Shown: one piece after another, positions 7,359 to 9,783 of the stretch
How the letters are laid out: each line of letters opens with the position of its first letter
Numbering within the stretch: the stretch's first letter is position 1
DNA from: an uncultured delta proteobacterium
GTDB lineage: Bacteria; RBG-13-61-14; DRUE01
Length of the DNA stretch: 9,783 nt
Reading direction: 5' to 3'
Assembly: GCA_903930515.1 (NCBI GenBank)
Contig: CAIYYW010000126.1
Location: forward strand, 1-9,783
Position numbers and translations under genes: made by a program
Notes under the pieces: model-generated
What the model was told of the DNA's origin: nothing
Seen by the model: the letters and a program-made list of their open reading frames with translations, nothing else
Database searches by the model: none

Positions 7359-7402
7359 CCCTCCGGATAAAAACATTATAATCCTCTTTACTGTCTGAAC
7401 AA
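7359..7402 (-). promoter_or_regulatory. Promoter and ribosome binding site of the SurA-like gene
   Basis: A perfect TATAAT (minus strand, 7375-7380) is preceded by a 16-base spacer and a weak TTGTTC (7397-7402), which lies inside the 3' end of the HPr-kinase-like gene. The expected start is near 7368, giving a leader of about 16 bases that holds the GGAGGG site (7359-7364). This element also decides the start codon, because the in-frame ATG at 7376 is part of the -10 sequence and would not be transcribed from this promoter. Confidence 0.6.
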
Positions 7403-8425
7403 TTGCTCCAGCAGGGCGTTAAGCTCTTTAAGACTGAAATCGGCAACGCAGGGTATTTTATAACAGGGAATCTGCTTGAGATATTCCCGCAAGCGGGATT
7501 CCTGTTCAATGAAGAATCTGGAATATTGCGGGTCGCCGGTTTTTTTCCCAAGACCGGCCAGGCAATCCCCGAACCCATACATCTCCTTTTGGCTGATCTT
7601 AACCAATTTATCCGCAGCCTCTTCCGCGCTGATCGGTTGAAGGCCGTTCCCGGTTCCTTCCAGGATCGCAACGGCCTTCAAATCAACCCGGTCAAGGATT
7701 TTTATTCCGGGCATAAGTTCCTGTACGCTCAGCTTGGCCTGAAGCCGCGCATATCCCAACAGCATCTTCCGGAGCGCGGTCCGGAAATAAATCCCGGCCG
7801 TTCGGGAAGCGGAAAGGTTTTTCCCCAGCCCGGATTCCATCAGGAGCCGGCCTCCGATCCGGAGCGGGGTGACATAGCGGCGGGCCTGTCCGTAACTCAG
7901 GATGGTGAAATCGTCGGACAGGAACGGATGCCCCTGTTTGAGCCATTGCAGAAGCATCCGGGTTTTGCCGCTCCCGCCTGATCCGGCGACAACTATCCCC
8001 CTGCCCTCTTGGGCCAGGCAGGTGGAATGGGCAAAGATAAATCCCAGCGGTTGCGCCAGCCATCTGATCGCCGGCTCCACCACCTGTTTGGCGACAATCA
8101 TCCGGCTGAAGCCGTTCCCGTAAAACTTGATCCGCGCCGGCGGCTGGCTCAATCGTTCAAACCGGATCATCCAGCGGGCAAGCTTATGCCTTCCGGGGAA
8201 ATCATAAGGAGACATCCCCTCGGGGTTCCGGCTTTTCTTAAAATCGGACAGCTCCCCCAATTCCAGATCCAAATCCAGGGTGATGGGTATGGCTTCTGGA
8301 TCCGCCTGGTAAAAGGACAGCTCCCGCTGGACCGCCCTCACCAGCAAAGGCTCCCCGTAAACCTTGAGCTGGCAAACCCCGTCCAGGTCAAAATAAACCG
8401 GCTGGGCATATTTTTTTGACATCAT
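7388..8425 (-). CDS. HPr-kinase/PEPCK-like P-loop protein
   Basis: This 345-residue protein has the HPr kinase/phosphorylase-like nucleotide-binding fold. The core pattern is FAHSTCLAQEGRGIVVAG leading into the Walker A loop GSGGSGKT (residues 148-155, with K154 and T155). Sixteen residues later comes FLSDDFTIL, whose D171-D172 pair matches the Asp pair of HprK/PEPCK-like kinases. The N-terminal 120 residues, beginning PVYFDLDGVCQLKVYGEPL, are not recognisable to me, and the C-terminal part contains the helical KELNALLEQLF. There is no HPr (ptsH), PqqD or PTS gene in the window, so the substrate is unknown and true HPr phosphorylation is unlikely to be its role (inference). Two adjacent ATGs (8425 and 8422) follow an AGGA site; the first is taken. 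It is divergent from the YkgJ-HAD gene. Confidence 0.78.
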   Translation of the reverse strand: MMSKKYAQPVYFDLDGVCQLKVYGEPLLVRAVQRELSFYQADPEAIPITLDLDLELGELSDFKKSRNPEGMSPYDFPGRHKLARWMIRFERLSQPPARIKFYGNGFSRMIVAKQVVEPAIRWLAQPLGFIFAHSTCLAQEGRGIVVAGSGGSGKTRMLLQWLKQGHPFLSDDFTILSYGQARRYVTPLRIGGRLLMESGLGKNLSASRTAGIYFRTALRKMLLGYARLQAKLSVQELMPGIKILDRVDLKAVAILEGTGNGLQPISAEEAADKLVKISQKEMYGFGDCLAGLGKKTGDPQYSRFFIEQESRLREYLKQIPCYKIPCVADFSLKELNALLEQLFRQ

Positions 8426-8468
8426 TGAATTCCTTTCCTATCATACCAGAGAGAGGAAAGATGCCCAA
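8416..8468. promoter_or_regulatory. Compact bidirectional promoter with overlapping -10 elements
   Basis: Plus strand: a perfect TTGACA (8416-8421), a 17-base spacer and TATCAT (8439-8444), with a likely start near 8451, drive the YkgJ-HAD gene (ATG 8461, site GAGAGGAAAG). Minus strand: TTGGGC (8463-8468), a 17-base spacer and TATGAT (8440-8445) preceded by TGG, with a start near 8433, drive the HPr-kinase-like gene (ATG 8425). Both -10 hexamers share the near-symmetric TATCATA. Each -35 lies inside the opposing gene's first codons, and both leaders would be only about 8-10 bases long. Confidence 0.65.
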
Positions 8469-9573
8469 CTCCGATCAGGATGAGAATAAGATTTGCCGGA
8501 AGGAATGCCTCAGGTGCGCGCATTGTTGCCAGCCCTATTTCAGCCTTTATGTGAGCGACCAGGACGAGGAACAGTGGCGTCTTGAGGGGCGGAGGGAGAT
8601 CCTGGAGCGGCTGCTCTGGGAGCGGAAGAACATCGTCTGGCAGGATGACCGGCCGGTCAATCTGTCCACCGGAGAGGTGGAGCGGAGGTGCCACTGGGTT
8701 CAGAAAAATCCGGACGGAACCACCGCCTGCTCCATCCATAACCACAAGCCGAAGATTTGCAGCGACTATTCCCCCGGAAGCTCGGAGTTATGCCTCCAGT
8801 ACCGCCGGGTGCGCGAATATATCATCGGAATTGACCTGCACGGGACCCTGCTGGCGCCCGGGGAAAAATTTGACGAGGAGCTGGTGGCGCCGATCGCGCG
8901 GGAGCTGGATCGCTTAAAGGGCAAGGCCCTGCTCTGGCTCTGCACCGGGAACGACCTCTCCTTCGTGGACTTGAAGGTGCCGGCGCCGGTCCGGGAGATG
9001 ATGGACGGGTATGTCCTGGAAACCGGCTGCTCGGTCAGCCGGGACAAGCGGACCGAGCAGGTGCTCAGCAACGCGGAAGAAATCAGGACCATCAAAGGAC
9101 TGGAGATTTTTTTGCGCAAAATGAATTTCCCGGAACTGAACTATTTCGCGCGCCGTCTCACCACCATCAGTATGTTCACCGACCAGCCCCGCCAGTTCTA
9201 TTACAAGGTCAAGCTGATCGTGGACAAAACCGAATACCGGGACCGGGTGGCGGTGACTTATTCCAGCGTGGCCGTGGACCTCCTCCCCGGAGGATATGAC
9301 AAATTCCGAGGACTATCCGCGGTCGGCGATGGCAGAAAGACCATCGGGATCGCGGATTCCGCCAATGACCTGAACCTGCTCCTGCGCTCGGATTATGCGT
9401 TTTCTCCGGCGAATTTTGCGCGCGAGCTGGAGCCGGCGCTGTTGCGGGAGGGTAGGAAAATCGCCGAGCTTTCCCACCTGGATTCTTTGGAGCAGAACAC
9501 CCTGGCCGTTTCCTGCCAGAGCGAGACCCGGGGGGCGCTGGAAATCCTCCGGTTCCTGGCCAAGCATTTGTAA
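8461..9573 (+). CDS. YkgJ-type cysteine-cluster domain fused to a HAD hydrolase
   Basis: This is a two-domain protein of 370 residues. Residues 12-111 match the YkgJ/zinc-or-iron cluster family: CLRCAHCC (C16, C19, C22, C23), C77, C90, then HKPKIC (C100) and C111, a metal site of unknown role in this family. From residue 119 a HAD-superfamily domain follows. Motif I is IGIDLHGTLL with nucleophile D125 but H127 where the second Asp normally stands. Motif II is LLWLCTGND with T162. K281 lies in GGYDKFRG, and motif IV is IADSANDL with D299 and D303. The cap region is of the Cof/MPGP-like size. The linker is only about 7 residues, and no start codon or frame break separates the domains. ATG 8461 follows GAGAGGAAAG. 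Substrate unknown; a phosphatase or phosphotransferase acting with a metal-cluster domain is inference. Confidence 0.8.
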   Translation: MPNSDQDENKICRKECLRCAHCCQPYFSLYVSDQDEEQWRLEGRREILERLLWERKNIVWQDDRPVNLSTGEVERRCHWVQKNPDGTTACSIHNHKPKICSDYSPGSSELCLQYRRVREYIIGIDLHGTLLAPGEKFDEELVAPIARELDRLKGKALLWLCTGNDLSFVDLKVPAPVREMMDGYVLETGCSVSRDKRTEQVLSNAEEIRTIKGLEIFLRKMNFPELNYFARRLTTISMFTDQPRQFYYKVKLIVDKTEYRDRVAVTYSSVAVDLLPGGYDKFRGLSAVGDGRKTIGIADSANDLNLLLRSDYAFSPANFARELEPALLREGRKIAELSHLDSLEQNTLAVSCQSETRGALEILRFLAKHL

Positions 9574-9665: not shown

Positions 9666-9783
9666 ATGAATCTTGACGACTTGTTGATCCAGGCGCGGTC
9701 TCCGATCCGATATTTGAACCACGAGATCAATTCCTGGAGGAAAGACCCGGGCGCGGCCAAGTTGAAGGCGGCGCTGTTGTTCC
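9666..9783 (+). CDS. N-terminus of a probable B12-binding radical SAM protein (partial)
   Basis: Only the first 39 codons are in the window, and the frame is open at the right edge. The peptide begins MNLDDLLIQA and contains SPIRYLNHEINSWRKD followed by KLKAALLF. This matches from memory the opening of the TIGR03960-type B12-binding radical SAM proteins, which start with a PARYLGNEINS-like segment and then an ALAFPD strand leading into the cobalamin-binding domain. The cobalamin and CxxxCxxC regions lie beyond the window, so the function is a recognition call, not proof. The gene starts with ATG just after an extended -10 element and follows the terminator of the YkgJ-HAD gene, so it is probably a separate transcription unit. 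Confidence 0.55.
   Translation, partial: MNLDDLLIQARSPIRYLNHEINSWRKDPGAAKLKAALLF

Follow-up and report, generated by a model that had tools for sequence, protein, structure and literature searches.

The window, the whole 9,783-nt stretch of contig CAIYYW010000126.1 that was analysed, carries a genuine genus-specific gene fusion in which a CxxCxxCC (YkgJ-type) cysteine domain is joined to a HAD-IIB domain (Table 1). By itself the fusion is a small curiosity, but its HAD half defines a rare, unnamed family, called DLHGT here after its motif I, with an invariant change at the acid/base residue of HAD phosphatases, and the neighbourhood of its stand-alone members gives a testable substrate class. 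The His at position +2 and this lipid-gene neighbourhood are more informative than the fusion, and both lay outside the interpretation of an earlier reading of the same DNA (the sequence-only reading). Our preferred reading, which we hold tentatively, is that the protein is a Mg-dependent phosphatase that has His at the acid/base site, acts on a glycerol- or inositol-phosphate head group or its lipid, and has in one lineage been fused to a metal module, perhaps of the Fe-S type. The counterpart in the one other genome found for this genus (G001; L002/L008, contig CAIUDS010000278.1, with the record title uncultured delta proteobacterium, AlinenSediments) is referred to as L008.

Table 1. Features of the fusion gene and its divergent neighbour in the window
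Feature	Position	Strand	Basis
Fusion gene CxxCxxCC + HAD-IIB, 370 aa	8461..9573	+	Open frame; same-genus L008 counterpart under purifying selection
Purine-rich stretch AGAGAGGAAAG directly 5′ of ATG	8450..8460	+	Read from sequence; L008 has similar AGAGAGGAAGAAG before ATG
CxxCxxCC (YkgJ-type) domain, eight conserved Cys	8503..8793	+	Pfam PF03692 residues 15-103; Cys invariance
HAD-IIB domain, residues 118-370	8812..9570	+	Alignments A1/A4, AF2, PDB structure matches
Motif I, D125-L-H127-G-T129	8833..8847	+	D and H invariant, 18/18 aligned members
Motif II, T162-G-N-D (C-T/S-G-N-D across family)	8944..8955	+	Family alignments
Motif III, Lys281 (VAVDxxPxGYxKxxGL)	9301..9303	+	Invariant in alignment A4
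Motif IV, D299-S-x-N-D303	9355..9369	+	Invariant in alignment A4 save x position
HprK-related P-loop protein, 345 aa, divergent neighbour, outside fusion	7388..8425	-	Weak Hpr_kinase_C / HprK_rel_A matches; also beside L008 fusion

The HAD half and its family

Residues 118-370 clearly model as a HAD-IIB fold with a Rossmann-like core and a C2b cap: the AF2 model of residues 121-370 has block pLDDT values of mostly 89-97, and it matches 3pgv (Z 21.7), 1wr8 (Z 21.5) and 1rlm (Z about 21.5) in the PDB. In profile searches the HAD half stayed below cutoff, both for Hydrolase_3 (PF08282; E 0.013, with 15.7 bits for the full protein and 17.6 for the HAD part alone, cutoff 20.9) and for several HAD-IIB models, and its match to the archaeal phosphoglycolate phosphatase TIGR01487 (E 2.4e-5) is far under the equivalog cutoff (24.3 against 122.75 bits). 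All five members of alignment A1, however, match Hydrolase_3 at E <= 0.01, the best of them at 2.5e-11, so the domain search that the sequence-only reading had proposed as a check supports both halves, the cysteine half by a match above cutoff and the HAD half through this relative and the fold. That reading had also listed HAD motifs I to IV; II (T162), III (K281) and IV (D299 and D303) are intact, but motif I is D-L-H-G-T and not DxDGT. The class IIB catalytic set is thus present, with D125, K281, D299 and D303 invariant and Thr or Ser in motif II, and His127 stands where the DxDGT type has its acid/base Asp. In HAD phosphatases this Asp at +2 is the general acid/base and protonates the leaving group (PMC4081830).

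All 18 aligned members, from several bacterial and archaeal phyla, have Asp at the nucleophile and His at +2, and the other HAD catalytic residues are likewise conserved among them. The nearest outgroup that we inspected, the best weak relative L056 (G477), has Glu at +2 (LDIEGT) and is possibly an intermediate form. A profile scan gave 17 loci in public genomes, with record labels of Nanoarchaeota, Woesearchaeota, Micrarchaeota, Thermoplasmatota, Halobacteriales, Cloacimonadota, Delongbacteria, Acidobacteriota, WOR-3 and unclassified bacteria. The public-contig scan used patterns with DLHGTLL and is therefore biased to His, whereas the whole-genome profile searches are free of this bias, and all of their strong matches (10 in 386 genomes, and 2 in 292 and 2 in 279 for two archaeal phyla) are DLHGT; the family is sparse. 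With the single fusion protein as query the public-contig scan found no relative, and the HAD alignment was needed. No DLHGT HAD was found in viral contigs, and a defence library search gave no match. In the tree the fusion genus and RBG_13_61_14 group with good support, and the deeper branching is unsettled. A literature search, with most subscription journals beyond its reach, found neither a paper on the DLHGT family nor a description of the fused architecture, for which the sequence-only reading had known of none either.

Because the His is fixed at +2, either it does the acid/base job or the chemistry differs. We infer the catalysis, the part played by His127, the class of substrate, the type of metal and any coupling between the domains along the following lines, beginning with the first of these: Asp125 would attack the phosphoryl group, His127, replacing the usual Asp, would protonate the leaving group, and Thr162, Lys281 and Asp299/Asp303 would hold the phosphate and Mg. 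The predicted HAD-IIB fold, whose nearest neighbours are sugar/polyol phosphatases and PMM-like enzymes, argues for a phosphatase, but the loss of the Asp at +2 could instead mean that phosphatase activity is changed or absent. The HAD half would then be another phosphoryl-transfer enzyme (a mutase, an acyl-phosphatase-like enzyme or a non-hydrolytic phosphate binder) and not a general phosphatase, which we consider somewhat unlikely. Such a change would suit the family-wide invariance of the His, and non-phosphatase HADs do have other residues at +2, Thr in P-type ATPases and Ala in phosphonatase; yet the nucleophile and the residues of motifs II, III and IV are all retained, and a role as general acid is possible for His. 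Phosphomannomutase 2 is the top PDB profile match, its GGSD resembling C(S/T)GND and its FPxGWDK resembling PxGYxK, but it has Asp at +2 itself, and many phosphatases are found among the structural neighbours. This alternative, the preferred phosphatase reading and the neutral joining considered below are not fully exclusive.

Gene neighbourhoods of stand-alone members

Several stand-alone DLHGT HADs adjoin genes of lipid or polyol metabolism. In L010 and L011 the neighbour is a PgsA-like CDP-alcohol phosphotransferase on the same strand, separated from the HAD by 4 and 41 bp. L014 has an archaetidylinositol-phosphate-synthase-like gene as neighbour, L013, L022 and L023 have a glycerophosphodiester phosphodiesterase (GDPD), and L005 and L030 an inositol-monophosphatase-family gene. 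The PgsA-like genes score 104.8 and 104.7 against an equivalog cutoff of 109.1 and the AIP-synthase-like gene scores 156 against 180, so these names are approximate. Glycerophospholipid genes stand beside the stand-alone HAD in 6 of 14 genomes (PgsA-like in two, AIP-synthase-like in one and GDPD in three), whereas 0.045 would be expected from the 36 CDP-alcohol and 7 GDPD genes counted in these genomes. The resulting P(>=6 of 14) of about 2e-12 overstates the case, because the families were picked after the neighbours had been seen, and because the calculation assumed one gene per kilobase and independence of the genomes; even so, the excess is still large. At about half of the loci the adjacent genes are unrelated (MutS, SelA, PFK/thioredoxin). 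The neighbours are also not lipid genes in the fusion genus (HprK-like and radical SAM) or in the genome of the same order (DNA ligase), and the substrate inference thus derives from distant relatives.

Two further arrangements were seen at these loci. In L023 (4998-5745) a frameshift or stop breaks the DLHGT HAD beside the GDPD gene into two frames, which reflects either decay or an assembly error. In Delongbacteria-type genomes (L019:4139-4885, L020:4205-4981 and L034:625-1371) another HAD, PF00702 by L019, lies divergent from the DLHGT HAD.

For the preferred phosphatase reading, the natural substrate would most likely be a phosphorylated polyol of lipid metabolism, that is, glycerol- or inositol-phosphate, or a phosphatidyl/archaetidyl-head-group phosphate. 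The cap counts against a lipid substrate, since capped HAD-IIB enzymes are better suited to small soluble molecules than to lipids in a membrane. A bolder proposal, which we regard as quite improbable, is that the DLHGT HADs are an undescribed phosphatase family with His as general acid that dephosphorylates the head group during phospholipid synthesis (on PGP or archaetidylinositol phosphate) in scattered archaeal and bacterial lineages, and that in one of these lineages it has come under an Fe-S or zinc module. Should the lipid-head-group reading be right, the family would be a candidate for a phosphatase step which a 2022 review lists as unidentified, namely the phosphatidylinositol-phosphate phosphatase of the head-group step (PMC9385802), and in the fusion a YkgJ-type metal domain would for the first time be seen attached to a defined enzyme of such kind.

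The cysteine domain

Residues 15-103 match Pfam PF03692 (CxxCxxCC) at E 2.6e-5, scoring 25.3 bits where the cutoff is 23, and C16, C19, C22, C23, C77, C90, C100 and C111 do not vary among four stand-alone relatives found in other genomes (alignment A5; mixed alignments of stand-alone YkgJ proteins and HADs came out misplaced in MAFFT and were left out). The sequence-only reading had placed the metal-site domain at residues 12-111, and the domain and its eight Cys hold up, but C12 falls outside the conserved set, since neither L008 nor the stand-alone relatives have it. AF2 models this domain with low confidence, both alone and within the fusion (pLDDT 26-75). FliB, with the motif CX4CX3CC and eight conserved Cys, binds one [4Fe-4S] cluster, and its authors compare the motif with PF03692 (PMC8598068), which by analogy makes an Fe-S cluster in the cysteine domain of the fusion plausible. 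This domain would bind metal, perhaps one Fe-S cluster as reported for FliB, and would probably serve the enzyme as a structural module or as one that responds to redox state.

The fusion and its distribution

The fusion gene is a single stop-free frame of 370 codons by direct translation, as the sequence-only reading had reported, and the purine-rich stretch before its ATG is probably its ribosome binding site. The linker is short, as had been described, but its length is about 8 and not about 7 residues (counted between C111 and residue 120, at the first strand of the HAD). L008 has the identical 370-aa architecture with no gaps at 79% identity, and its 17-residue junction between the domains is 82% identical to that of the window. 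Between the two genes dN/dS (Nei-Gojobori) is about 0.16 in the cysteine domain and 0.12 in the HAD domain, and both halves are under purifying selection. Both genomes have a divergent HprK-like region next to the fusion. On the 3′ side of the fusion L008 carries a radical SAM gene, and the first codons of apparently the same gene are present near 9666 of the window. The HprK-related protein of the window has the P-loop SGGSGKT and is separated from the fusion by a 35 bp gap.

Among the genomes sampled, the fusion was seen in two only, both of this genus. Genome G002 (Deltaproteobacteria bacterium RBG_13_61_14), of the same order, has a stand-alone HAD at 53% identity, and its YkgJ-type genes are on contigs other than that of the HAD; distant HAD homologues are stand-alone proteins too. 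A search for the same domain order across phyla, suggested by the sequence-only reading, therefore yielded L008 within the genus and stand-alone HADs beyond it. PF03692 matches occur in 175 of 386 genomes, and among the matches listed, 14 unusually long frames passed through a Cys-pattern filter gave 9 YkgJ ORFs, none of which had an obvious HAD motif by eye. In three WOR-3-type genomes in which a DLHGT HAD is also present (L043:753-1415, L095:1785-2504 and L096:1873-2535), a stand-alone YkgJ-type gene adjoins a different HAD (FDFDGTLADT). The sequence-only reading had taken the architecture as a rare functional hint, to a metal-cluster module that may sense for or regulate an enzyme acting on phosphoesters. 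The architecture is rare in the genomes sampled, but the hint is weak, because the cysteine domain and the HAD are encoded by genes without linkage in the genome of the same order.

The confinement to one genus and this lack of linkage would also fit a neutral or near-neutral joining of two unrelated genes, in which each domain keeps its old job and the cysteine domain does not regulate the HAD, and other members of the HAD family function without a cysteine domain. We nevertheless judge this unlikely, as the junction is free of indels at 79% identity and selection acts on both halves. A separate HAD start at the internal GTG codon 117 was considered and rejected: the codon lacks a clear ribosome site and reads GTC in L008, so no such start is conserved there. 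An artefact of sequencing or assembly joining two genes, for which no support was found although the window genome is a draft of 401 contigs, is ruled out by the identical frame and ungapped junction in the independent genome of L008. The sequence-only reading had named separate genes in close relatives, joined here by error, as what would overturn it; the same-genus relative is fused in the same order, not split, with both halves constrained, and the YkgJ-HAD fusion is genuine.

Comparison with known systems

The cysteine half resembles YkgJ and other PF03692 proteins in its CxxCxxCC start followed by four later Cys, its length of ~100 residues and its score over the Pfam cutoff, but these are usually short stand-alone proteins (most frames of 100-300 aa among the matches listed), whereas here the domain is joined to a HAD. 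With the flagellin lysine methyltransferase FliB (PMC8598068), the metal of which is known to be [4Fe-4S], it shares an N-terminal Cys-rich motif and eight conserved Cys; FliB differs in its CX4CX3CC spacing, its methyltransferase function and the absence of a HAD domain, and the likeness is one of motif. The HAD half resembles the HAD-IIB sugar/polyol phosphatases YbiV, PH1421, TA0175 and MpgP in fold, length and motifs II-IV (Z about 18-21.7 over 209-221 residues), but identity is 15-20% and the known enzymes have Asp at +2, in contrast to His here. Phosphomannomutase 2, also HAD-IIB and the closest by PDB profile, is alike in the surroundings of motif II (GGSD) and in motif III (PxGWDK), and differs in having DxDGT where the fusion protein has DLHGT.
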